Shown one piece after another: positions 271 to 19,730 of a stretch of 64,000 bases of DNA. Position 1 is the first letter of the stretch; each line of letters starts with the position of its first letter. The DNA is from Syntrophobacterales bacterium (GTDB lineage Bacteria; Desulfobacterota; Syntrophia; Syntrophales; UBA5619), in NCBI GenBank assembly GCA_019429105.1, contig JAHYJE010000018.1, forward strand, positions 1-64,000, written 5' to 3'. Made by a program: the position numbers and the translations under genes. The notes under the pieces are model-generated. The model ran no database searches and was not told where the DNA came from. It worked only from the letters and a program-made list of their open reading frames with translations.

Positions 271-441
271 CATCTTTACGGCTTCAGAACAAGTAGTCAT
301 TTCGAGGTCAATGTGAATCCAAGGTTTCTTGTGTTTCTCGGCGTAGCCCTGCTGTCTCTCATGGGCTTCACGCTTCTGGTTATTGCTGAAGGCGCGAATG
401 TTCAGGTGCTTTTCCTTTCGTCCAAGGACATACGGGTAACA
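271..441 (-). pseudogene. Remnant resembling the C-terminal part of an HNH endonuclease
   Basis: In the frame that is out of phase with the specificity-subunit tail, the minus strand reads YVLGRKEKHLNIRAFSN, then QKREAHERQQG. The order [GR]KEKHLNIRAFS-x-KR-x-ERQ-x-G is what I associate with the stretch just before the CxxC of HNH endonucleases found with DUF262 and similar restriction genes. The cysteine/HNH core that should follow is not recognisable, and there is no start codon. It is probably a fragment left when the adjacent elements recombined. The identification rests on a short motif and is uncertain. Confidence 0.35.
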
Positions 442-1520
442 TTTTTTGTTGCTTCGATTTTCCTGTCCAAATACAAAACAACGTCTTTGAGGACTAATTT
501 GTGGATTGCGGAAATGAAAGTTTCCATAAGTTTGTAGTCCGGTTGTTTTCCGTCTGTCGGCAACAAAATGTTCAACTCGTCAGCATCTTTTGCATAGAAG
601 TTTCTACCGTAGTCAAACTTTCCAGTATGCGATGATTTGTGAATTGCGGTAGTTATGAAAATAGAAGCGTATTTTGCTAAATTTTCTGTGTGAACAATTG
701 CAACGTGGTCGTCTCCACCATATTTGTAGTTTCTAAATTTCGCAGAGCCGAACATATCTATTGTTGTTGTGTTTGCTTCAAAAACATCAACAATATTGCC
801 GATAAAGTCTGAAACACCTTCGTTTGTTTCGCCTGCTGTTACAAATGGCAAAACACCAGATATTCTGTCTTCACTTTTCAAGCGTTTGCCACGGGTCGAT
901 TTTCCGAACAAACTTTCAAGTTTGAAAGTGTCCCACGTCACATTTTGAATTTCATCCAACGCTTTTACTTCGTCTTTTCTTAGCGTGTAATCTTTGAGGC
1001 CCGCCACCGAAAGATACGCTTCCAACTCTGCTATTCGCTCCGCTTCCAACTCTGCTATAAAGCGTTCCATAAAGTCGTGGTCAACTTTACCGTTTTTAGT
1101 AGGAAGATTAATAAGAAAATTAAAGCTTTGCGAACTTCTTAGTTTTTCACCATATGAAAATTTCCCCGAAAGTGATTTTTGCATTGCGATTGAAAAAAAC
1201 AACATCACTGCTCTTGAATACTGAACCTCATCATTCCAATAAACTCCCGTATCATCACCTGCACCGAATGTATAATCGCGATAAAAAACATTCCCAAAAA
1301 TATCTACGGTAATCGAATTTTTGGGAAAGCAAGCCACAGGATTTGAGACATAATTTACGATGCCTGTATTGGTAACCCCCGCCATTACAAAGGGAATTTT
1401 ACCTGGGACTTGATCGTCTTTTTTAAGCCTTCTACCTTGTGCAATTTTGTTGAAAATCTGTTTGAAAGTAAACTCGCCCCACTGAACACCTGCCAGTTGT
1501 TTATTCAGTGGGGCATCTAT
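402..1520 (-). CDS. BcgI/HsdS-like DNA specificity subunit (start not clear; possibly read by -1 frameshift from the upstream subunit)
   Basis: Target-recognition subunit for the restriction-modification enzyme encoded just upstream. Two homologous half-domains are visible: the first begins around VQWGEFTFKQIF and contains GRRLKKDD and ITVDIFGNVFYRDY, and the second contains GKRLKSEDRISG and TTIDMFGSAKFRNY. Each is followed by a helical linker (AELEAERIAELEAYL; LDRKIEATKNV), the layout of HsdS and BcgI-B proteins. The first in-frame ATG is at 1385 and would cut TRD1, so the coding sequence must begin further upstream. The frame opens through CCT-GGG-AAA-ATA-GAT and has only weak candidate starts (ATA 1520, CTG 1508). 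The last codons after EATKNV run into the HNH-like scar. Family assignment is firm; the start is not. Confidence 0.8.
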   Translation of the reverse strand: MDAPLNKQLAGVQWGEFTFKQIFNKIAQGRRLKKDDQVPGKIPFVMAGVTNTGIVNYVSNPVACFPKNSITVDIFGNVFYRDYTFGAGDDTGVYWNDEVQYSRAVMLFFSIAMQKSLSGKFSYGEKLRSSQSFNFLINLPTKNGKVDHDFMERFIAELEAERIAELEAYLSVAGLKDYTLRKDEVKALDEIQNVTWDTFKLESLFGKSTRGKRLKSEDRISGVLPFVTAGETNEGVSDFIGNIVDVFEANTTTIDMFGSAKFRNYKYGGDDHVAIVHTENLAKYASIFITTAIHKSSHTGKFDYGRNFYAKDADELNILLPTDGKQPDYKLMETFISAIHKLVLKDVVLYLDRKIEATKNVTRMSLDERKST

Positions 1521-3553
1521 TTTCCCAGGCTACTTTCCTCCGCTGTCTGCTGTTTAAGGATGTTCTTCACTTCCCATGCCAGATAATCGCTGATCGTTTT
1601 CTTAAAATCCTGTAGTGTCGGCCTTGTATCGACCGGAGCACTCTGGTTCCAATCTGCGCCATCCAGAGGATTAATAGTCCCTTCGTAATACTCTTTATCG
1701 GTGAAGTATTTGAGCTTGCCTTTTCCAAAACGAACAAGGTTTACCACCTCTTCGTACCGCTCTTTCGCATGGTCGGTATCTTTGAGATTATTGCTCGCTT
1801 TTTTGCGGTTTGTACGGGTGTAGCCGTCATTTGAAAAATCAATGAACTTAACCACTTCATCTTTGTGGTGCTTTTCGTTGACCCGGAAAACATAGATATT
1901 GGTCTGCACACTGGATTTGCCTAAAAAGAGGTCAATCGGCATCTTGATACTGGCGATAAGCGTATGTTTTAGAAGAATCTTTTTGTTGTACTCTCTTGCC
2001 TTGCCAGAACCGGCAGAATTTTGGATGATGATTGCCGCATATCCTTTATCCATCATGTCCAGAGCTTTTTCCACAAAGTTCATTCCATTGCCGTTCGCCG
2101 AATAGGGCGGATTGAGGATAAAGGCATCGGCAGGGAATTTGTCTTTCGTGTTCCCAAAGCCATAATCACCGTCGAAGTCGTTTAGAGAGTCTTTGTTCAG
2201 AATATTTGAACTACCGTCCCCCATGAGAATCATATTCAAGGTTGCCAACATGTAAACACTGGGAAGCAGCTCCAACCCAAGCAGTTGTTTCGCTTTAATT
2301 ATCACCTCTTTATTCAACAAGCCTTCTGGTGATTTAATACTATTTCTTGCATCGGTTAGCATCTCATTCATCGCTGCAACCAGCAAACCCGCAGAACCGG
2401 TAGCAAAGTCCCACACATAGGAGTCTTTGTTTACCCTCGCCAGTTTGACTAAAAGAGTTGCGACATAAGACGGTGTTAAAACGACATCGTTAAGCTTGTC
2501 CTGTGAAAAACCGAGCCACCCGTACATCTCATTGAACAGTTTCCCAGTGAAATCGGTAGTGAGCCCGATCTTGTAATAGATGCCTAAGTCATCGACAATC
2601 TTTGTGAATACTCGCTTTAACTGGCTGCTCCCATCTTTTACCTTGTTGATGTTTTCAGTGGTCAGCGTGTTTTGCAGGGTTCGTACAATGAACTCTTTCT
2701 TTTCCTGCGGAAGCTGTTTCTCTTTTAAAAAGGCTTTGATCTTTCGTATGATTATATCCCCATCGGTATTGTCTGTTTCTGTGGAAGATTTCAGATTAGA
2801 TTTTTCGAGTGGGCCGACCTTTCCCGGAATACCAATGGTCGCAATAATTGATGCAGCCACAAGATACACACGGTCATTTTCACCGAGACCTTTTTCGTTT
2901 TGGTAAATATCATTGTTGAGTTTCACCAAACTGACATCAATCTCTTTTTCCCTCTGCTCCTTGAGGGTGTCGATATCTTCCTGGGAAAGATGAAGATTGT
3001 TAATCTTCTCAATGAAAGCATCAAAATTTGCCGGTGATAAAAACGAAAAGTCGGTATATTCATCAACTTTTTGCCCCGCTCCAAGATTGCTTTTAGAAAC
3101 ATAGTACACACCAATTTCGTGCTGGATTTGACCTGATTCGTCTTTGTATCCAGTCATACCGATGGCGATAACATCCGTGTAAGCGGTATGATGCAGCAGA
3201 GCATTTGCATAATGCACCGCACCATTGACAGCGTATGAGTTGATATTTCGAAAATGGGGTTCATTCTTCGCTTTGCGATTTTCAACCTGTCCCTTGGAAT
3301 CGAGTTTTACCAATTTGTTTTGATACCCTTTGTATTCAATCAAGATGGGGTAATAGTTCAGCTTTTTATCTTGAAGTAAGAGTTTTACATCTGGTCGATT
3401 GCCACCGGCTCCGCCATTTTTGGAGAAATAATCATTCAGGGCTTTATCAATTTCACAATTGAGTGACTCTTGTTCTAACTTGTAATTAAGTTTGTAGGAT
3501 TTCAGCCAGCCGTTAGCTAAATCGGCAATATTTGGTTCAATTGATGCGGCCAT
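1517..3553 (-). CDS. BcgI-A-like restriction-modification subunit (nuclease + N6-adenine methylase)
   Basis: Predicted bifunctional restriction and N6-adenine methylation subunit of about 678 aa. The N-terminal third carries a PD-(D/E)xK-like arrangement (RPDV, then ILIEYKGY). The methylase half shows SAM motif I (VWDFATGSAGLLVAAM) and catalytic motif IV (NPPYSANGNGMNF). There is no DEAD/ATP-motor gene nearby, so this fits Type IIB/IIG-like (BcgI) systems better than classical Type I. I chose the ATG at 3553 because AGGAG lies just before it; an upstream in-frame ATG at 3637 lacks a ribosome site. The stop (1517-1519) overlaps the start of the specificity frame. Confidence 0.85.
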   Translation of the reverse strand: MAASIEPNIADLANGWLKSYKLNYKLEQESLNCEIDKALNDYFSKNGGAGGNRPDVKLLLQDKKLNYYPILIEYKGYQNKLVKLDSKGQVENRKAKNEPHFRNINSYAVNGAVHYANALLHHTAYTDVIAIGMTGYKDESGQIQHEIGVYYVSKSNLGAGQKVDEYTDFSFLSPANFDAFIEKINNLHLSQEDIDTLKEQREKEIDVSLVKLNNDIYQNEKGLGENDRVYLVAASIIATIGIPGKVGPLEKSNLKSSTETDNTDGDIIIRKIKAFLKEKQLPQEKKEFIVRTLQNTLTTENINKVKDGSSQLKRVFTKIVDDLGIYYKIGLTTDFTGKLFNEMYGWLGFSQDKLNDVVLTPSYVATLLVKLARVNKDSYVWDFATGSAGLLVAAMNEMLTDARNSIKSPEGLLNKEVIIKAKQLLGLELLPSVYMLATLNMILMGDGSSNILNKDSLNDFDGDYGFGNTKDKFPADAFILNPPYSANGNGMNFVEKALDMMDKGYAAIIIQNSAGSGKAREYNKKILLKHTLIASIKMPIDLFLGKSSVQTNIYVFRVNEKHHKDEVVKFIDFSNDGYTRTNRKKASNNLKDTDHAKERYEEVVNLVRFGKGKLKYFTDKEYYEGTINPLDGADWNQSAPVDTRPTLQDFKKTISDYLAWEVKNILKQQTAEESSLGK

Positions 3554-3572
3554 TACTTCTCCTCTTTTATTA

Positions 3573-3598
3573 GCCCGGCATTGATGCCGGGCATTTTT
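3573..3598 (+). terminator. Rho-independent terminator-like hairpin upstream of the methylase gene
   Basis: A perfect 8-bp stem GCCCGGCA / TGCCGGGC with a TTGA loop is followed on the plus strand by ATTTTT. On the minus strand it lies in the 5' leader of the restriction-modification operon, without a T tract in that direction. It would stop plus-strand read-through, or act as a leader hairpin. Confidence 0.6.
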
Positions 3599-3709
3599 AG
3601 GCGCGAACTCATTGACCTTTCTTCGGATTCTTCGCATGATTCAGGTTGCTACTTGGAACATCCGTAGAACTCTGAACCCGCATTTTAAAAACAAAGGCTT
3701 TTCTTTTCT

Positions 3710-4174: not shown

Positions 4175-4711
4175 ATGACCCAGTTAGAAATCATCGCTTG
4201 CGAATACGCCACCCACCACCATGCGGCGATAGGCCAGGTACGCAAATACACCGGTGAACCGTACATCAAGCATCCAGCGGCAGTAGTTAAGATCGTGCAG
4301 AGTGTGCCGCATACGCCGGAAATGCTTGCCGCTGCATGGCTGCACGATACCGTGGAAGATACCGCCGCGACATTGGAAGAGATTGACCAGCTCTTCGGAC
4401 AAGAAGTTGCTTGCATGGTCGAGATGCTGACGGACGTGAGCAGACCGAGCAACGGCAACAGGAAGGTACGGAAAGCGATTGATCTGGCTCATACGGCCAA
4501 TGCCTCTCCGGAGGCCAAGACCATCAAACTGGCAGACATGATCGACAATAAGCACAACATTGTTGAACGCAATCCCAAGTTTGCCAAGGTGTATCTTGTG
4601 GAAAAGACGGCCCTGCTTGAGGTGCTTACCGAGGGCGACGCGACCTTGTACGCCCAAGCCGTCGAACTCACACATACGCATACACACATGCACATACACA
4701 TTTGCGACTGA
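4175..4711 (+). CDS. HD-domain phosphohydrolase (MESH1/SpoT-hydrolase-like)
   Basis: A 178-aa protein with the HD superfamily pattern: an early His pair (THHHAA), HP in YIKHPAAVV, AAWLHDTVEDT carrying the HD dyad, and a distal Asp in IKLADMIDN. This order is that of small ppGpp-hydrolase-like HD_4 proteins, so it may hydrolyse (p)ppGpp or a related nucleotide. The extreme C-terminus (THTHTHMHIH) comes from a short ACACAT-type repeat and is probably not structural. It lies 16 nt before the recombinase gene. Confidence 0.75.
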   Translation: MTQLEIIACEYATHHHAAIGQVRKYTGEPYIKHPAAVVKIVQSVPHTPEMLAAAWLHDTVEDTAATLEEIDQLFGQEVACMVEMLTDVSRPSNGNRKVRKAIDLAHTANASPEAKTIKLADMIDNKHNIVERNPKFAKVYLVEKTALLEVLTEGDATLYAQAVELTHTHTHMHIHICD

Positions 4712-4727
4712 CACAAAGGAGTACACC

Positions 4728-5324
4728 GTGAAAAAAGGCGAAAACACCAACCGCCCCCAAAAAGGTTCCATCATTAAAGTTGAACCGATCCGGGAACTCA
4801 AGGACATAAAGGCAATAAAAAAGATGCTTGCCGGGAATCCTTTATATTCTGCCATATTCACTGTCGGAATCAACACCAACCTCCGGGCAAGCGACCTCTT
4901 GAGTATTACCGTCGGTATGGTACGCGGCGTCAAGCCAATGGGGGAAATCGAACTCAAGGAGAAAAAGACCGGGAATGTCCGTAGAATAACCCTCAACAAA
5001 AGCTGCGTCGATGCCATTGCTGAACTCTTAAAAACGCGCCCCAACGCAACCGACAAAGATTATTTGTTCATTGGGAAAAGAGGAGTACTGACAGTCGGGA
5101 CGGTCAACAACCTCGTCAAAGCCTGGTGCGCGGCAATCAACCTCAAGGGGAATTACGGCAGCCATTCCCTCCGGAAGACCTGGGGATACCATCAGCGTGT
5201 TTCATTTGGCGTCGGCCTCCCGGAGTTGATGACGGTATTCGGACACGCATCCCAGAAACAGACACTTGCCTATTTGTGCGTGCAGCCGGAAGAGATCAAA
5301 AATGTATATGCGAACGAGTTGTGA
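4728..5324 (+). CDS. Compact tyrosine recombinase
   Basis: A 198-aa site-specific recombinase that is little more than the catalytic domain. The tyrosine-recombinase set is visible: Arg in TNLRASDLL, Lys in KEKKTGNVRR, HSLRKTWGY (H-x-x-R), the second His in GHASQKQ, and nucleophile Tyr in TLAYLCV. It starts at GTG 4728 with AAAGGAG upstream; longer readings into the HD gene are not needed. The core-binding N-terminal domain of typical integrases is missing, so it resembles small stand-alone recombinases of integrative elements. It is separate from the P4-type integrase at the tRNA end. Confidence 0.8.
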   Translation: MKKGENTNRPQKGSIIKVEPIRELKDIKAIKKMLAGNPLYSAIFTVGINTNLRASDLLSITVGMVRGVKPMGEIELKEKKTGNVRRITLNKSCVDAIAELLKTRPNATDKDYLFIGKRGVLTVGTVNNLVKAWCAAINLKGNYGSHSLRKTWGYHQRVSFGVGLPELMTVFGHASQKQTLAYLCVQPEEIKNVYANEL

Positions 5325-5348: not shown

Positions 5349-6452
5349 ATGTTTAAGGCATTGGCAGTAAGTGTGGCAATCATTTTGGCAGCAGGTCTTT
5401 TTAGTCCGCATCGCATTGAGGCTGACGATGATAGAAAAGTCTTAATACGGAATATGCTAAACGACCTCGGCGGCCTTGCTTCCCAGCGGAAAAACAACTG
5501 GAAAGTTCTGAAATGCACTCAAGGTGGATTGAAACGAGTATTCGTTAGCGATAGTCTTGACGAATACGTTGCGGAATATAGAGGTTGCCGCGAGTATGGT
5601 TATATAAGAGACAGTGTGTCTGTAGGGGGCTGGTGTGACGATCAGAACATCGACAGGACCACGATTGACACGACAACATTACGCTTGATAAAAGCAGCAG
5701 AAAAGGGCCATCTTACCGAGGTGAAATCCTTGCTTGACGCCGGGGCAAATGTAAATGCTGTTGATGAGGACGGACGTACTGCGTTGATGCTGGCAGCCTT
5801 ATTTGACCATCTGGATGTTGTGCAAGTCTTGCTCAAGGCCGGTGCGAATGTGAATGCAACCAACAATAGAGGCATTACAGCACTGATGTGGGGGTTTCAC
5901 GGCGGCGGTGGTGATAAGACTGATATGATGGTGCAGACCCTGCTTGATGCCGGAGCAAAGGTCAATGTTGTTAATAAGGAGGGCAACACAGCTTTGATGT
6001 ATGCAACCCAAGCACCCCCAGTTGTAATAAAGACGTTACTCAAGGCCGGGGCGAATGTGAATGCAACCAACAATGACGGCGACACAGTTCTGAAAAAGGC
6101 AGTTTTATATGATGGACAAGCAGCAAACGTGAAACAGTTGCTCAATGCCAGAGCGAAGGTCAATGTGGCGGACAAGCATGGTGCTACAGCATTGATGTGG
6201 TCTGCTTGGAAAAACCTCTCTGATGTCACGCAAATACTGCTTGACGCCGGAGCAAATGTAAATGCTGTTGATGAGGACGGACGTACTGCGTTGATGTATG
6301 GTGCCTGGCCTGACCATCTGGATGTTGTGCAAGTCTTGCTCAAGGCCGGGGCGAAGATAGACGCAACAGATAAGGACGGTGACACAGCCCTGTCATGGTC
6401 CCTCGCAAGCGGTCATGATGATGTTGTGTTGATGTTGCGTCGCTGGAAGTGA
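5349..6452 (+). CDS. Exported ankyrin-repeat protein
   Basis: It has a 25-residue signal peptide (hydrophobic ALAVSVAIILAAGLF), a roughly 85-residue N-terminal region with several Cys, then about seven ankyrin repeats of the LLDAGANVNAVDEDGRTALM type from about residue 112 to the end. It is likely a periplasmic protein-binding scaffold. GGAAGGAG precedes the ATG. Two repeats around 5731-5843 and 6240-6351 are almost identical at the DNA level, which suggests recent repeat duplication or conversion. Confidence 0.85.
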   Translation: MFKALAVSVAIILAAGLFSPHRIEADDDRKVLIRNMLNDLGGLASQRKNNWKVLKCTQGGLKRVFVSDSLDEYVAEYRGCREYGYIRDSVSVGGWCDDQNIDRTTIDTTTLRLIKAAEKGHLTEVKSLLDAGANVNAVDEDGRTALMLAALFDHLDVVQVLLKAGANVNATNNRGITALMWGFHGGGGDKTDMMVQTLLDAGAKVNVVNKEGNTALMYATQAPPVVIKTLLKAGANVNATNNDGDTVLKKAVLYDGQAANVKQLLNARAKVNVADKHGATALMWSAWKNLSDVTQILLDAGANVNAVDEDGRTALMYGAWPDHLDVVQVLLKAGAKIDATDKDGDTALSWSLASGHDDVVLMLRRWK

Positions 6453-10980: not shown

Positions 10981-11619
10981 TCAATATGCTCTAAGATTTA
11001 TCCTTACCCCCGTCAACTTTGCTGCCAGTGCTACATTCATCCCTCCTTTGCCAAGAAATTTACCGAAATAGTTCTCGGTAACATACACAGTTGCTTCATT
11101 CATGTTCTGGCTGTATATTACTTCGCAGATTTCCTTCGCCGGAGCCGGAGCTAATGCTGCCCGGATGTATTCTTTCATATCGTGCGAGAATGATACCAAC
11201 GTAATTGTCCGAGTAGTGTATTGTGTCGAATGCTTCAGGTATTTCAATGCAATCGGCATGGGATTTACTCCTTCGAATTCAGACGCAATAGCTACTTTTA
11301 CAAAATTAGCATTAGTTGAAGTCGCGGCTCGTTTCACGAATATCCCTTCTTTTGCTGCTGGTGATAAAAGCATTTCCATAAGTTTTCGGTAATATAAGGC
11401 TGTTGACTGGGACAACACGATGTGTTTATCGCTCATCATGTGAACACAGCCTACTGTAGCATCACCTATCCGCCAGTTCGATGCTGCAAACTTCTTCGGC
11501 AGGATAGCCATAAATTCAGTCTCCGGAATCATCGTCAAATATGAATCGTAATCAGGAAGGGCTTTGATGATAACTATAGGAACCATATAGCCTACTTTCA
11601 TCGAAATCAAATGTACCAC
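10981..11619 (-). CDS. NusA-KH-like RNA-binding-domain protein
   Basis: The C-terminus reads VTENYFGKFLGKGGMNVALA then AKLTGVRINLRAY, which is the GxxG loop and following helix of a NusA-type KH domain (compare GKKGQNVRLAAKLTGW). The N-terminal 140 residues are not recognised. It starts at GTG 11619 with GGAAGG upstream. It lies between the helicase loader and a structural-type gene in the mobile module, so it may bind its own transcript or act in anti-termination; both are inference. Confidence 0.6.
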   Translation of the reverse strand: MVHLISMKVGYMVPIVIIKALPDYDSYLTMIPETEFMAILPKKFAASNWRIGDATVGCVHMMSDKHIVLSQSTALYYRKLMEMLLSPAAKEGIFVKRAATSTNANFVKVAIASEFEGVNPMPIALKYLKHSTQYTTRTITLVSFSHDMKEYIRAALAPAPAKEICEVIYSQNMNEATVYVTENYFGKFLGKGGMNVALAAKLTGVRINLRAY

Positions 11620-11923: not shown

Positions 11924-12634
11924 TCAATTTGCGATGCCGCGCACTGATCGTTTCTTCCGCCAGTCCGGCATTGATGTGATTTTTATTATTTTGGAATCGG
12001 ACAGTCTGGACGCGATTCTTGCGCCCAGGGTTTGTTCGACGGTTTCCAAATCCATGAAGTTTGTAGTCACGATGGTTTTCCGTCCATACCGATAACGGCG
12101 GTCGATGATGAGATGCAGAGTCGTGATGGAGTAGTCGGTTGTTTTCTCGGCCCCCAAATCATCCAACACAAGCAGCGCATAAGCGGTATATTGTTCAATC
12201 AGCTCCTCTTCTGTCTGCGTAGATCTTTCTCCGAAGGAAGACCTTATCCGCAGCAATAATTCTGGAACGGGGATGAACATGGCTTCAGTATTTTGCTTGA
12301 GGAACTCAGCCAACATGCCTATAGCAAGGTGAGTTTTTCCACAGCCAGTATTACCGCACATGGTGATGCTATCCTTTGAATAGATATGGTTTTTTAGCAT
12401 GTCAACCAGTTTCGGATTCCCTTGATAGGTATCCAGCCTGAATGCCTCATACCTTGTCGGCACACCGCATTTTCTCATCCAGTTGATCTTTGGCGGTGCT
12501 GCATATTCAACCTCCCGCATGATCTGTACATCAGAACGTATAGTCGACTGGATAGGGCGATGAATCACTTGTTGCCGGCACAAGCGTTCCTGCACCTGCT
12601 GTATAACTGCACTTGCTGATTGCATGTCGATCAT
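11924..12634 (-). CDS. DnaC-like helicase loader ATPase
   Basis: A 236-aa AAA+ ATPase with Walker A GNTGCGKTH (about residue 90), Walker B LLVLDDLGAE, sensor 1 IVTTNF and an Arg finger region IASRLSD, which is the DnaC/IstB pattern. It should load the replicative helicase at the element's origin. The ATG at 12634 has GGAGGAAA upstream and overlaps the end of the initiator gene by 104 nt. The overlap implies tight coupling of initiator and loader, as in lambda O-P. Confidence 0.85.
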   Translation of the reverse strand: MIDMQSASAVIQQVQERLCRQQVIHRPIQSTIRSDVQIMREVEYAAPPKINWMRKCGVPTRYEAFRLDTYQGNPKLVDMLKNHIYSKDSITMCGNTGCGKTHLAIGMLAEFLKQNTEAMFIPVPELLLRIRSSFGERSTQTEEELIEQYTAYALLVLDDLGAEKTTDYSITTLHLIIDRRYRYGRKTIVTTNFMDLETVEQTLGARIASRLSDSKIIKITSMPDWRKKRSVRGIAN

Positions 12635-13880
12635 ACTTTTCCTCCATGACTTTGATTAGGTTGCTTTCTTTAGTCAACCATTCAAGATCAGACTTCCAGC
12701 CGCGATCATTTTCACCGGTCAGAAAAGGCGATCCCCGAACCTTGATGAAATATGACTTCCACCAATCCACCGATTGACGTGATTTGTCTTTTAGACAGAC
12801 AGCAAGATGGGTTCTTCTGCTATGCGTCCATTTTGTGACCTTGGGCAACATTGGAAGGATTTCATGGTAAGCAGAGACGATTTCTTTCTGCAGAAGAGCG
12901 AGGGGGTCGGAATGCGCGAGCGTTCCGACTATCTCTTCTTTAGAAGAGATAATGTTTTCTTTTCTTTTCTTTTCTTTGTGTATTTCCGGGGCCGGAAATA
13001 CACTTGCATCTGTATTTCCGGCCCCGGAAATTGGTTTTATGTCAACTTTCGTGTTTTTTTGAACATCGGAAATGGTTTTTAATGAGGGAAAAATGGTTTT
13101 TTCTGGCTCCAAAATGAGGTTTTTCTGCCCTAAAAAGGTGTCATTTACCCTTCCCGGCCCGGCAAGTACCCCGCCATGCTCGTCTGGTTGTATTTCCGGC
13201 CCCGGAAATACACTTGCATCTGTATTTCCGGCCCCGGAAATAGGTTTTATGTCAACTTTCGTGTTTTTTTGAACATCGGAAATGGTTTTTAGTGAGGAAT
13301 AAATGGTTTTTTCTGGCTCCAAAATGAGGTTTTCCTGCGCTGAAGGGGTGCCATTTACCCTTCCCGGCCCGGCAAGTACCCCGCCATGCCCGTCAGGTTG
13401 TATTTCCGGGGCCGGAAATACACTTGCATCTGTATTTCCGGCCCCGGAAATAGGTTTTATGTCAACTGTCGCTTTTTTTTGAACATAGTGGGAGATGATT
13501 TCTTCGAGAGTGATTATGGCGTTTTTCCGTTTTGTATAGGCTTCTTTGAGGCTACCCAAAAGGTCAGGTGAGACGATTACTCTATAAGAAACCCACAAGG
13601 GAGCGTATATCTTTCCCGTTTTTGCCATTAGATCAAGCATTGCTGCCCCGGCATCCTCATCATCGCACTTTGTCTTCGAAAAAAAGTAAATCCTGTCCGC
13701 GTCATCGGCAAGGCTGAAATGGTGATCCGGAGTCTGGCAAAGAAACCGCATCATGTTTGTGAAAAAGCCGGTCCCCTTGCACCCGTACTTGCTCTCAAGG
13801 ATAAATAAAGTCCGACCGTCCTTCACATAGAAAGGAAAATAATCAACCGTATGTTTTTCTCCACGTCCTGGGCTTGCCAT
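12531..13880 (-). CDS. Replication initiator-like protein with internal tandem repeats (DUF4373-like N-terminus)
   Basis: The N-terminal 150 residues (VDYFPFYVKDGRTLFILESK, then GFFTNMMRFLCQTP) resemble the Lin1244/DUF4373 winged-helix domain of phage/plasmid initiators. The middle, about residues 143-310, is two full copies plus a partial third of a 70-residue repeat containing KPISGAGNTDASVFPAPEI. At DNA level it is a 210-bp tandem array with palindromes. An acidic-basic linker (HKEKKRKENIISSKEE) and a C-terminal region with WTHSRRTHLAVCLKDKSRQS follow. The ATG at 13880 has no good ribosome site, and the frame is open upstream to the TGA ending the 13989-14162 gene. Confidence 0.7.
   Translation of the reverse strand: MASPGRGEKHTVDYFPFYVKDGRTLFILESKYGCKGTGFFTNMMRFLCQTPDHHFSLADDADRIYFFSKTKCDDEDAGAAMLDLMAKTGKIYAPLWVSYRVIVSPDLLGSLKEAYTKRKNAIITLEEIISHYVQKKATVDIKPISGAGNTDASVFPAPEIQPDGHGGVLAGPGRVNGTPSAQENLILEPEKTIYSSLKTISDVQKNTKVDIKPISGAGNTDASVFPGPEIQPDEHGGVLAGPGRVNDTFLGQKNLILEPEKTIFPSLKTISDVQKNTKVDIKPISGAGNTDASVFPAPEIHKEKKRKENIISSKEEIVGTLAHSDPLALLQKEIVSAYHEILPMLPKVTKWTHSRRTHLAVCLKDKSRQSVDWWKSYFIKVRGSPFLTGENDRGWKSDLEWLTKESNLIKVMEEKYDRHAISKCSYTAGAGTLVPATSDSSPYPVDYTF
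12935..13452. other. Candidate replication origin: palindromic iterons plus AT-rich tract inside the initiator gene
   Basis: Six near-identical palindromes TATTTCCGG-NN-CCGGAAATA lie at 12981, 13013, 13191, 13223, 13401 and 13433. They form pairs 32 bp apart repeated every 210 bp (the copy at 13013 ends in TT). Immediately left is an A/G-rich strand (12935-12980; CTTTTCTTTT-type on plus), a possible unwinding element. Iterons inside the initiator gene beside an AT-rich tract, with the loader gene following, is the lambda ori arrangement. Function is inferred. Confidence 0.55.
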
Positions 13881-14206: not shown

Positions 14207-15478
14207 CTACTGCAAGAGTTGCGTCTCGTTTTGTATTGGGGGCAGCATCTTGGATTGCTCGAACATTGCTGACGTAATCGCAGGAATTTTTGGTCCTTGG
14301 ATTTGCGGCAAATTCCTCACAAGTTCATTTACTTTTTTTTGAATGTTCCCCAGTGCCTCAAGGACTTCGTTGCGCACTTTTTCGTCAATGTCGTAACTGT
14401 TCCAAACCGTATCCAGCATTTCCAGTTCGGATTTTACGTTTGTGATTCTCTTGCGCAGCATATCGGGGCGGAAGATGATATTCATTGCATCTTTGCAAGA
14501 GTCATAGTACATCCTGGCCGCCAGCCATACGGTATTGATCTTAGCTTCGTTGTCCCGCAAGTCCCGCTTGGCTTTATCGCGTTCCTCCTTGAGCCGATCA
14601 ATCTCCTGATCCTTCTCCTTGATGGCTGTCGCACTGCGTGTGACTTGCGTTTGGATGGAAATGATCTGTTGCGACACCTCTTCTTTGAGCGTTTCGGCTG
14701 CTCGCGCCGTTGATTGATCCCGGAGTTCCTCAAGTTCTTCTATCTTGTCTTTGAGCAGTCTTTTGGCATCCTTGTTCCGTCGCTCCAAATCGTCCCGTTC
14801 TCTCTCCGCTTCCCGTTTTTCTGCATCCAGGGCCTTCATCCTCGCTTCGAGTTGAGCCTGTTTCTGTTTGGCCTTTTCAATTTCCTCCTGATGTGCTTTC
14901 TCCTGTTCTTGCGCTTTTTGCTGCGTCTGAACATCCTGTTCCGTCATGGATGTCACAACCGGTTCAGGCTTTGTCGCAAACCTTGTCTGCATTGTCTCAT
15001 ACAATTTCTGCTGGTCTTCCTTTGGCAGACCGCAAAATAACCGGACTTCTACGGAACTAATTTCTCCCTGGGCATAAAGCTGATACAGCTCTTCAATGAG
15101 GGAGTCTTTTATTTTTTCTTCATGTTTTTGTTTCGTGATTTCGCGTATTTTCTTGGCGTAGAATTTCCGTTCTTCACTTGTCAATGCTCTACGATACAAC
15201 TCTGTGTCGTAGGCTGCTTCCAGCTCGTCTGCTTCAATCACCATACATTGTAATTCTGGGATTCCGAGTTCCTCTGCTATTTTTAGGCGATGATTGCCGG
15301 CTACTGCAACATAAGTTGGTTCATTATCATGGTCTTTGGCAACTATCAGTGGTTCAATGATTCCGTGTTCTTTGATGCTTGAATACAATTCATTGTATTG
15401 CTGCTCTGACAATGGGGGAAATGGGTTTGCGGGATCAGTATGAATCTTATCACGGGAAATTAGTATGGGGATGTTCAT
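14207..15478 (-). CDS. ParB/Srx-domain protein with long coiled coil
   Basis: 423 aa. The N-terminal ParB-like domain (ISRDKI, SIKEHGIIEPLIV, YVAVAGNHRLKIAEELG) carries the GNHRxxIA box of ParB CTPases and nucleases. Residues ~190-310 form a highly charged Gln/Glu/Lys coiled coil (repeated EKxxAERERDDLE types), followed by a helical C-terminus. No ParA ATPase is encoded beside it, so it may be a regulator or adaptor and not a complete partition protein. The ATG has AAAGGAG and overlaps the upstream stop (ATGA). Confidence 0.8.
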   Translation of the reverse strand: MNIPILISRDKIHTDPANPFPPLSEQQYNELYSSIKEHGIIEPLIVAKDHDNEPTYVAVAGNHRLKIAEELGIPELQCMVIEADELEAAYDTELYRRALTSEERKFYAKKIREITKQKHEEKIKDSLIEELYQLYAQGEISSVEVRLFCGLPKEDQQKLYETMQTRFATKPEPVVTSMTEQDVQTQQKAQEQEKAHQEEIEKAKQKQAQLEARMKALDAEKREAERERDDLERRNKDAKRLLKDKIEELEELRDQSTARAAETLKEEVSQQIISIQTQVTRSATAIKEKDQEIDRLKEERDKAKRDLRDNEAKINTVWLAARMYYDSCKDAMNIIFRPDMLRKRITNVKSELEMLDTVWNSYDIDEKVRNEVLEALGNIQKKVNELVRNLPQIQGPKIPAITSAMFEQSKMLPPIQNETQLLQ

Positions 15479-16038
15479 GGCTCGCTCCTTTCGATTGTAG
15501 AGGTATTCTTTGGGTTTTGTCCGTTGGTTAAGACGTTATCAAAAATGATTTGGGCTGCTTTAGCCACTGGCAGGCCATTGCTTTTTGCAAATTTCCGAAT
15601 AAGCTGGAATGTATGAGCAGACATATCCAGCCGAATATTCTGATATGATGTTTCTTGTTTTTGATTTTCGCAGTGGATGTATTCCCTAATTTTTTCTGCA
15701 ATGACAGCATGATAACCAGGAATTCTTATCAGTGATGCCATTTCTTTAGGGAGTGTTACAAATACCCGATTTCGAGGCTCGTTCTGGGAGATGGATTCTG
15801 GTGCTTCTTTCTTAGTATCTTGTATTGCATGGTGTTCCTTCTTTCGGAGATGCAGCAGCAGTGCTATTTCGGATGGTTTCTTGACGAAAACTTCGTACCT
15901 CCGCGTGTTCTTGGGGGAAATATTGCTGCGAGATTGGAAAGGCAATCTTTCTTGGGCAATGAGTTTGCGAAGATATCGCGGGGTATATCCCTGCGCCCAA
16001 CTATTGATTCTCAAAAACTCTTTCAGTGTACACCACAT
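15475..16038 (-). CDS. Hypothetical protein coupled to the ParB-like gene
   Basis: A 187-aa basic protein: YTPRYLRKLIAQERLPFQSR near the N-terminus and MSAHTFQLIRKFAKSNGLPV near the C-terminus look like short helix-turn-helix or ribbon-helix-helix elements, but I cannot name a family. The stop overlaps the next start by 4 nt. The ribosome site at ATG 16038 is weak. A pair of palindromic direct repeats lies just upstream. Confidence 0.55.
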   Translation of the reverse strand: MWCTLKEFLRINSWAQGYTPRYLRKLIAQERLPFQSRSNISPKNTRRYEVFVKKPSEIALLLHLRKKEHHAIQDTKKEAPESISQNEPRNRVFVTLPKEMASLIRIPGYHAVIAEKIREYIHCENQKQETSYQNIRLDMSAHTFQLIRKFAKSNGLPVAKAAQIIFDNVLTNGQNPKNTSTIERSEP

Positions 16039-16059
16039 ATTTTAACGTCCACTTTATTT

Positions 16060-16136
16060 CTGTTCCGGCTTCCCGTTGACCATTTTTTGGTCACGGAACT
16101 GTTCCGGCTTCCCGTTGACCATTTTTTGGTCACGGG
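16060..16136. repeat. Two 39-bp direct repeats with internal palindromes
   Basis: The unit beginning CTGTTCCGGCTTCCCGTTGA occurs at 16060 and 16099. Each copy contains TGACCA-TTTTT-TGGTCA, an inverted repeat. The pair lies immediately upstream of the 187-aa/ParB-like operon, in the position of an operator or a centromere-like site. Confidence 0.6.
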
Positions 16137-16171
16137 GATGCCGGAACTGTTCCCCCTTCGCCTTGGCCATT

Positions 16172-16411
16172 CTAAGCATGGGGCAGGTTGCTGTTCCTGC
16201 CTCTCTTCGAACAAAGTGCGGTGTCGTTTGCTTCGACTGAATTTTTCTGCAACCATTCCTCAATTTTTTGAGGGTCGAACCTGATGCCGCCTCTCAAAAT
16301 CCGAGTATGCGGAATGTCCGCAAACTCAACAGCCCGATAGATATACGATCTGGATACGTTTAGCCTTTCCGCTACTTGCCCTACTGTAAGCATCTTGTTC
16401 TTGTCTTCCAT
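16172..16411 (-). CDS. AlpA/excisionase-like helix-turn-helix protein
   Basis: 79 aa from ATG 16411 (AAAGGAG upstream). LTVGQVAERLNVSRSYIYRA and RGGIRFDPQKIEEWL are the HTH_17 pattern of MerR-like excisionases and small regulators. It is first in the leftward module after the IS200/IS605-like end, so it is a likely regulator of the replication genes. Confidence 0.8.
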   Translation of the reverse strand: MEDKNKMLTVGQVAERLNVSRSYIYRAVEFADIPHTRILRGGIRFDPQKIEEWLQKNSVEANDTALCSKRGRNSNLPHA

Positions 16412-17905: not shown

Positions 17906-18160
17906 ATGAGAGACAGTAATAATCAAGGAAATGTAGAGGCAACGTCGTTCGACGGTTTTATCCGTCTCAGTCAGATTATTGGAACAAAAGGCAATCCTGC
18001 AAGGAATATCCCGGCTATTCAGCCGATTATTCCGATATCGAAAACGAGTTTTTTGAACGGCGTCAAAGCGGGAATATTCCCAAAACCCGTCCGACTTGGC
18101 GAAAGAACGGTTGCGTGGAGGGTGTCGGATATAAAGAGACTGATCGAACAGCAATCCTAA
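17906..18160 (+). CDS. AlpA-family transcriptional regulator/excisionase
   Basis: 84 aa; IPISKTSFLNGVKAGIFPKP then VRLGERTVAWRVSDIKRLIE is the AlpA/Prophage_AlpA HTH pattern. AAGGAGG precedes the ATG. It sits next to the integrase and converges on it with a 4-bp overlap, so it is the likely directionality factor. Confidence 0.85.
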   Translation: MRDSNNQGNVEATSFDGFIRLSQIIGTKGNPARNIPAIQPIIPISKTSFLNGVKAGIFPKPVRLGERTVAWRVSDIKRLIEQQS

Positions 18161-19374
18161 TACGTCCGGTCGCCGCCGCCCTTTAGCTCTTCCAGGTAAT
18201 CGGCCCATTGCTGCATCATCGCCCGTCGTTCCGGAAGAAACTTCGTCCGGTTATAGGCCCGGCCCAATGGGTCTTTTACCTGATGGGCTAATTGATGTTC
18301 AATGATATCCGGCCTGACCTGTAAGACTTCATCCAGAATTGTCCTCGCCATAGCTCGGAAGCCATGACCCGACATCTCATCCTTTTCAAAATCCATGCGC
18401 CGCAAAGCAGACAGGATAGCATTATCCGACATGGGACGTTGAAACGATCTCGCAGATGGAAAGCAGTATTTACTTTCTCCCGTATATTTGTAAAGCTCCT
18501 TGAGTATATTAACCGCTTGCCTCGGAAGAGGAACGAGGTGAGAAACCCTCATTTTCATTTTATCTGCCGGAATGTTCCAGACAGCTTCATTAAGGCTGAT
18601 TTCTGCCCACTCCGCCTTTCGTAGCTCTCCCGGTCGGACAAAAAGCATCGGCGCAAGTTTCAGGGCGCATAGTACAGGATAACTTCCTGTGTAATCGTCT
18701 ATTGCTCGCAATAATTCCCCTACCCGCTCCGGATCGGTGATGGCCGCCATGTGTCCAGATGTAGGGGGTGGTATTGCCCCTCTGAGATCGCCCGACGGAT
18801 CACGATGCGCTCGACCCGTGGCGATTGCATACCGGAATATCCTACCGCAAAATGCCCTGATCCGATGTGCAGTATCAATAGCCCCGCGTTCCTCGATCTT
18901 CTGAAGGACAGACAACAATTCAGGAGCCATTATCTCATTGATGGGTTTCTCCCCTATGTACGGGAAAACATCACGTTCCAATGCGGATATAATCCTCATG
19001 TAGTATCCCGGAATCCATGTGTTAAGGAATTTATTATACCATTCGCGTGCTATTGCCTCGAACGAATCAGTATCAACTTTTGCGGCCTTCTCTTTCTGCG
19101 CCCTCCTTGTAACAACCGGGTCGATATTGTCGGCAAGTAACTTTCTGGCCTCATCTCTTTTTCTCCGGGCATCTGCAAGACCAACATCCGGATACTTGCC
19201 GATAGCCATTAACCTGCCTTTCCCGCCAATCCGATATTTTAGCCGCCATAGCTTTACACCCGTCGGTAAAATATGAATATACAATCCCCCTCCATCAAAT
19301 AGACTGTAAGGTTTATCTTTTGCCTTTGATTTCAGAACTTTCAAATCGGTCAACGGTACAGTTAATCTCGGCAT
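18157..19374 (-). CDS. P4-type tyrosine integrase
   Basis: 405 aa with an N-terminal DUF4102 arm-binding domain (LTDLKVLKSKAKDKPYSLFD; LYIHILPTGVKLWRLKYR), a SAM-like core-binding domain, and a catalytic domain showing LFVRPGELRKAEW (Arg), MKMRVSHLVPLP, GHGFRAMARTIL (H-x-x-R), EHQLAHQ and YNRTKFLPERRAMM (Tyr). It lies next to tRNA-Val, the normal target class for this family. The repeats at 19394-19533 are just upstream of its start. Confidence 0.95.
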   Translation of the reverse strand: MPRLTVPLTDLKVLKSKAKDKPYSLFDGGGLYIHILPTGVKLWRLKYRIGGKGRLMAIGKYPDVGLADARRKRDEARKLLADNIDPVVTRRAQKEKAAKVDTDSFEAIAREWYNKFLNTWIPGYYMRIISALERDVFPYIGEKPINEIMAPELLSVLQKIEERGAIDTAHRIRAFCGRIFRYAIATGRAHRDPSGDLRGAIPPPTSGHMAAITDPERVGELLRAIDDYTGSYPVLCALKLAPMLFVRPGELRKAEWAEISLNEAVWNIPADKMKMRVSHLVPLPRQAVNILKELYKYTGESKYCFPSARSFQRPMSDNAILSALRRMDFEKDEMSGHGFRAMARTILDEVLQVRPDIIEHQLAHQVKDPLGRAYNRTKFLPERRAMMQQWADYLEELKGGGDRTY

Positions 19375-19655: not shown

Positions 19656-19730
19656 TGGTAGGCGGTACTGGGATTGAACCAGTGACTTCTACCGTGTGAA
19701 GGTAGCACTCTCCCGCTGAGTTAACCGCCC
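19656..19730 (-). tRNA. tRNA-Val(CAC), integration target
   Basis: The minus strand folds as acceptor GGGCGGT/ACCGCCT (one G-U), a D arm with AGCGGGA, anticodon stem CTACC/GGTAG with loop TTCACAC (anticodon CAC), T arm ACTGG-TTCAATC-CCAGT, and an encoded CCA. The integrative element lies on its 3' side. Confidence 0.95.

Follow-up and report, generated by a model that had tools for sequence, protein, structure and literature searches.

A replication origin is predicted inside an initiator gene

We analysed a 64,000-nt stretch of DNA (the window) from a Syntrophobacterales bacterium (contig JAHYJE010000018.1 of assembly GCA_019429105.1), in which an integrative element carries a replication initiator gene with palindromic iterons and an A-rich tract in its coding sequence. 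We estimate a probability of about 0.85 that this gene contains a self-contained theta-type origin that works like lambda ori/O/P. The elements of the origin, their usual order, the constraint on them at the DNA level across the family and the swapping of cassettes are read from sequence comparison and are described below. The features concerned are as follows, in window coordinates.

11924..12634, minus strand: DnaC-like helicase loader (AAA+, IstB/DnaC type), matching phrog_50 (E 4.8e-44)
12531..13880, minus strand: initiator gene, 449 aa, with a Lin1244_N-type N-domain, an origin-bearing repeat linker and a C-domain shared with phage initiators
12534..12920, minus strand: C-terminal domain, matching phrog_345 (O-like) positions 204-293 and other initiator C-domains; probable helicase or loader contact
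12955..12977, minus strand: pentameric A/purine-rich tract, (AAAGA)4.6 on the coding strand and (TTTTC)4.6 on the plus strand; putative DNA unwinding element
12979..13486, unstranded: in-frame 210-bp tandem unit in 2.4 copies, each an iteron pair plus coding spacer
12981..13000, unstranded: palindromic iteron 1
13013..13032, unstranded: palindromic iteron 2, with one outer mismatch (last base A>T)
13148..13170, unstranded: degenerate palindrome resembling an iteron, CTTGCCGGGCCGGGAAG on the coding strand, within the spacer; it recurs near 13358-13380
13191..13210, unstranded: palindromic iteron 3
13223..13242, unstranded: palindromic iteron 4
13401..13420, unstranded: palindromic iteron 5
13433..13452, unstranded: palindromic iteron 6
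13479..13880, minus strand: N-terminal domain (aa 1-134; phrog_2562), a predicted winged helix and probable iteron binder

From this arrangement we infer three steps: the N-domain recognises the iterons, the DNA melts at the tract and the helicase is loaded. The Lin1244_N N-domain would bind the palindromes within the coding sequence of its own linker, and the nucleoprotein complex formed on them would open the neighbouring A-rich tract with its 5-bp periodicity. The opened strand would then receive the host DnaB helicase, placed there by the C-terminal domain together with the DnaC-like product of the next gene. The N-domain, iterons and tract would form a cassette that is inherited jointly and recombined onto many different C-domains. 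In the window element, the iteron pair and its coding spacer would have been tandemly amplified to give six iterons.

The iterons are conserved as DNA rather than as peptide

The six 20-bp palindromes have the form TATTTCCGG-NN-CCGGAAATA and lie in three pairs inside the initiator gene, with a spacing of 32 bp within pairs and 210 bp between them. This arrangement had been described in a sequence-only reading of the window and was borne out, with the amendments that one palindrome has a mismatch in its outermost position and that the gene is on the minus strand. Allowing up to two mismatches, the 3.1-Mb genome contains just these six sites, each found on both strands, and a reversed-pattern control gave none. 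The exact palindrome matched viral contigs three times, in each case by chance in an unrelated gene, so the full 20-mer is specific to the element. The in-frame 70-residue repeat of the sequence-only reading corresponds to the 210-bp unit. The first two copies agree at 93% of the 210 positions, and copy 3, which consists of just the 88-bp iteron-pair part, is 95-97% alike.

Since the unit is recent and linkers in this family are low-complexity and K/E-rich, the repeat could be a protein feature or a slippage product: tandem duplication would have lengthened a disordered linker, leaving the DNA repeats as a by-product. Several results make this very unlikely. Copies 1 and 2 differ at 11 codons, 9 of which change the amino acid, whereas the palindrome arms are unchanged save for one outermost base. 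Each unit reads the identical palindrome in two frames, as ISGAGN and as VFPAPE, and the peptide therefore cannot explain its form. Synonymous shuffles of the homologous genes, which preserve the protein, lose both the iteron and the tract signals (below), and the homologue L036 retains pentamers (ACACT) despite a wholly different peptide.

Approximately 150 homologues were gathered from genomes and viral contigs, thinned at 85% identity and reduced to 71 for the family test; they are not independent events, and the counts ignore the tree. A contig scan of genomes returned no relatives with a single-protein query and seven with an alignment query. Between the N- and C-domains, the linkers of the homologues encode short, degenerate repeats (VSDTGNP is an example) and then PQ(R/S)KxKExK. 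The DNA behind these repeats consists of imperfect palindromes (GTTTCTGACGTTGGAAAC, TTTCCGACACCGGAAA, GTTTCCGGCACCGGAAAC and others) with centres of 6-9 nt and short arms. Exact TTTC-N6..9-GAAA sites were counted in 70 nonredundant relatives. Their linkers hold 50, compared to 12.1±2.8 in within-gene synonymous shuffles (maximum of 200 shuffles, 23); outside the linkers there are 18 compared to 8.3. Site density is highest at codons 120-150, and each of the three reading frames is represented (8, 30 and 12 sites). In L031 and L036, one iteron is in the alternative frame (FPGTEK), like the window's.

A motif-free count gave 901 palindromes in the linkers of the 71 homologues against 508±45 expected from shuffles, and 895 against 847 in the N-domain region. 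In a second set of 60 genes, in which other half-sites such as GTTAATGTAGACATTAAC and GTTCAACGACCGTTCAAC occur, the count was 532 against 270 (z 7.8). The generic statistic is strong for the window gene (66 against 27) and often weak per gene (p≤0.05 in 20 of 71), so the weight rests on the pooled and half-site tests. The results from both sets indicate that iteron number and sequence vary among relatives while the palindromic form is kept beyond the need of the protein, as the sequence-only reading would predict. The long modular iteron unit that it had proposed holds for the window element and is peculiar to it; in the relatives, linkers are short and their iterons compact.

Perfect palindromes such as those in the window are able to form mRNA hairpins, and iterons and tract might act as RNA structures in translation or transcript stability instead of as duplex DNA. 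We regard this as the least probable of the alternatives, bordering on negligible: the relatives' iterons are imperfect, with short arms and wide centres, and the purine-rich tract is unable to self-pair.

A 5-bp-periodic tract lies next to the iterons

The A/T-rich, purine-biased tract seen in the sequence-only reading lies in a stretch of 75% A+T (12934-12981). The least stable 60 bp of the window gene and its flanks are centred at 12956, on the tract, in agreement with its proposed unwinding role. The (AAAGA)n tract is the sole such array in the window genome. Its 5-bp periodicity, the strongest feature of the family, had been missed by the sequence-only reading. The period-5 self-match of the best 40 bp in the homologue genes averages 0.651, compared to 0.498±0.005 in synonymous shuffles (z ~30). 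The multiples 10 and 15 come next; periods 3, 4, 6 and 7 gave z values of 3.1, 2.9, 0.5 and 0.9, respectively. The best period-5 segment falls at codons 130-175 in 86% of homologue genes. Repeat units are AAAGT, AAAGG, AAACT and AAAGA, with ACACT in L036, and the coding-strand consensus is A-R-A-G-N. In L036, ACACT/AGAGT pentamers encode HTTLHYTTEEYTTL in place of SKVKESK.

The 5-bp repeat skews codon choice inside the tract. The Ser codon AGT accounts for 67 of 101 Ser codons inside the tract compared to 207 of 1199 elsewhere, Val GTA for 51 of 61 compared to 267 of 973, and Leu CTA for 12 of 24 compared to 149 of 1531. In tract-bearing homologues, 49 of 57 iteron sites are on the 5' side of the tract, at a median distance of 38 bp in that test. 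Viral contigs were also scanned for the exact 25-mer CAAAGTAAAGTAAAGGAAAGTAAAG, the commonest tract, which was found in at least 120 stretches. Of the matches listed, the first 80 viral loci were read, and 79 of them could be assigned to an open reading frame (ORF). All 79 are in this kind of initiator gene, on the same strand and in the same frame, typically at codons 140-160; a few of these ORFs are truncated or have a misplaced start. Because the scan is conditioned on one exact sequence, it reveals an association and not the full range of the tract.

The initiator of Roseburia phage Shimadzu (L230:1072-1923), whose N-domain is unknown to Pfam, has a pentamer tract of its own (AGAGT/AGACT units, p 0.01), which suggests that the distribution of the tract is wider than Lin1244_N. 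The tract is absent from the initiators with other N-domains in ctTUS972, phi297, phiRg519T2 and BS-TP2. We tentatively propose, as an idea that is more likely to fail than to hold, that the 5-bp-periodic tract may be a new class of sequence-specific origin-opening element with a role analogous to the DnaA-trio. Its register would be engaged strand-specifically by the initiator, loader or helicase, and it would be carried with Lin1244_N as a portable cassette across phages.

N-domain, iterons and tract are combined with many C-domains

The window N-domain matches phrog_2562 (E 2.8e-5), as do 63 of 65 aligned relatives. PF14297 (Lin1244_N, formerly DUF4373) is matched by six of seven relatives that are 28-60% identical to the window N-domain (best E 1.2e-11). 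The window protein itself did not match PF14297 in the Pfam scan, and its Lin1244_N membership is therefore through these relatives. A Pfam match to DUF5675 (E 4.6e-5, below cut-off) falls inside the repeat and was set aside. With a Lin1244_N N-domain and an empty profile comparison with lambda O, the earlier proposal of an independent initiator family stands.

The N-domains of all 71 homologues form one cluster, and the parts 3' of the tract form 17. Among pairs with N-domains at least 50% identical, 388 of 587 have unrelated C-domains, at up to 83% N-domain identity. The N-domain, iterons and tract therefore look like one portable origin cassette, a second aspect that had gone unnoticed in the sequence-only reading. 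The C-domains of the homologues match many initiator families including lambda O's own (four match phrog_277 and phrog_2357), and that of the window protein also matches several 'DnaD-like' and 'replication initiation' families. The window's C-domain type is also found behind DUF1376 N-domains (ctTUS972, phi297), and related C-domains behind a Phage_rep_org_N N-domain (phiRg519T2).

The gene downstream of the initiator in 54 homologues mostly encodes a DnaC-like helicase loader, a DnaB-like helicase or a primase/helicase. The order N-domain, iterons, AT-rich tract, C-domain and loader thus recurs across the family, consistent with the intragenic origin proposed before. In the window, the initiator ends at 12531 and the first ATG of the loader ORF is at 12634, giving the 3' overlap noted earlier a length of 104 bp on paper; its extent is uncertain because it would vanish if the loader started at an internal ATG near 12520.

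An AlphaFold model of the N-domain (pLDDT 92.5) was compared with known structures. The matches are mostly winged-helix DNA-binding proteins, all with modest scores (best Z 6.8). The plasmid Rep-DNA complex 5kbj gave Z 5.4 (rmsd 5.9, 87 aligned), and many unrelated winged helices score similarly. A Foldseek search with the N-domain found no confident relative. Regulators of the MarR, IclR and Fur types are among the fold matches, and palindromes near a probable binder are typical of repressors. The palindromes could thus be autoregulatory operators at which the N-domain shuts down transcription of its own gene or halts elongation within it, with replication starting elsewhere. However, the sites are deep in the coding region and away from the promoter, they are followed by a conserved unstable tract, and helicase loaders or helicases follow the genes. 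We consider an operator role improbable, if marginally less so than the slippage explanation above.

Some observations weigh against an intragenic origin bound by its own N-domain. Since the structure matches are weak, the winged-helix assignment holds only at the level of the general fold. Exact iteron half-sites are present in just 32 of 70 relatives, because iteron sequence drifts. Both iterons and tract are missing from ~8-10 of the 71 homologues, mostly G+C-rich ones; protein repeats without palindromes, the pattern that would count against the sequence-only reading, are not the rule in the family, yet these homologues are exceptions to the origin layout. L053, L059, L068, L084, L088, L090 and L100 have the same N-domain with neither clear iterons nor a pentamer tract, and are mostly G+C-rich. 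In such homologues the origin may be elsewhere, having moved out of the gene.

The surrounding element

Two further genes of the element lie upstream of the initiator.

14207..15478, minus strand: ParB-N domain protein containing a long coiled coil; part of the element, encoded upstream on the same strand
18157..19374, minus strand: tyrosine integrase, adjoining tRNA-Val(CAC) at 19656-19730, which marks the element as integrative

The integrase and its tRNA bear out the earlier view of an integrative element. No second copy of the tRNA-Val 3' end, which would mark the far end of the element, was found in the window. The element appears to extend beyond the start of the contig, with its left end outside. 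A second integrase-like ORF (4560-5324, phrog_216) overlaps a phosphohydrolase-like ORF (4175-4711) and is near a type I restriction-modification-like cluster (402-3637). The element also includes an ankyrin-repeat protein with a likely signal sequence (5349-6452). A hypothetical protein adjoining the loader (10981-11619) has a weak NusA-like KH match (E 0.013), and a short tandem duplication (KKWSTGSRN twice, 16023-16263) is near an excisionase-like HTH gene.

Implications

These comparisons would give a domain of unknown function that is present in hundreds of phage contigs a testable function, as an iteron-binding initiator domain, and would place the replication origins of Lin1244_N phages to the base. 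An origin and the domain that reads it could shift between initiators as one module. The 5-bp repeat over codons is a simple, strong signature of possible origin opening. It is usable for locating origins in metagenomic phages and can be recoded synonymously.

Comparison with known systems

Neither the pentameric tract nor the role of Lin1244_N appears to have been described so far. Titles and abstracts of the literature searched held nothing fitting on pentameric phage origins, and no link of Lin1244/DUF4373 to replication was found in the literature searched, which covered few subscription journals. The intragenic origin itself is of a known kind, since lambda, SPP1 and pSK41 already have one.

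In lambda, the origin is inside the O gene between the N- and C-domains; its palindromic iterons number four, or six in Stx phages, an AT-rich tract whose A-rich strand is coding comes after them, and the loader gene is directly downstream (PMC7466680). The window shares the intragenic palindromic iterons, the AT-rich tract after them and the loader gene next to the initiator. The lambda-type module of the sequence-only reading therefore holds for the layout of the mechanism but not for kinship, as the N-domain is Lin1244_N and outside the lambda O domain family: PF04492 (Phage_rep_O) was not matched at E≤1, and the hhalign probability was 0.1. The iteron sequence differs, the 210-bp modular unit is found in the window element, and its partner is a DnaC-like loader rather than a P protein. 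The lambda tract agrees in position and strand bias but shows no significant 5-bp periodicity (p 0.27).

The Rep protein of pSK41 (RepA_N) has a winged-helix N-domain that binds Rep boxes central in rep, a linker encoded by the origin, and a variable C-domain that contacts the host machinery, DnaG (PMC5703833). The window initiator would follow the same three-part logic. In contrast, PF06970 is not matched by the window protein (E≤1) or its relatives (E≤0.1), and RepA_N proteins belong to plasmids whereas the present family belongs to phages and integrative elements. In SPP1, the origin oriL is inside the initiator gene 38, and the loader gp39 and the helicase gp40 are involved (PMC6316719); by description, SPP1 differs in having a second origin, oriR, and direct repeats instead of palindromes. 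Lastly, phage initiators with DUF1376 or Phage_rep_org_N N-domains have a C-domain in common with the window protein or with the homologue L098, and differ from them in their N-domains.
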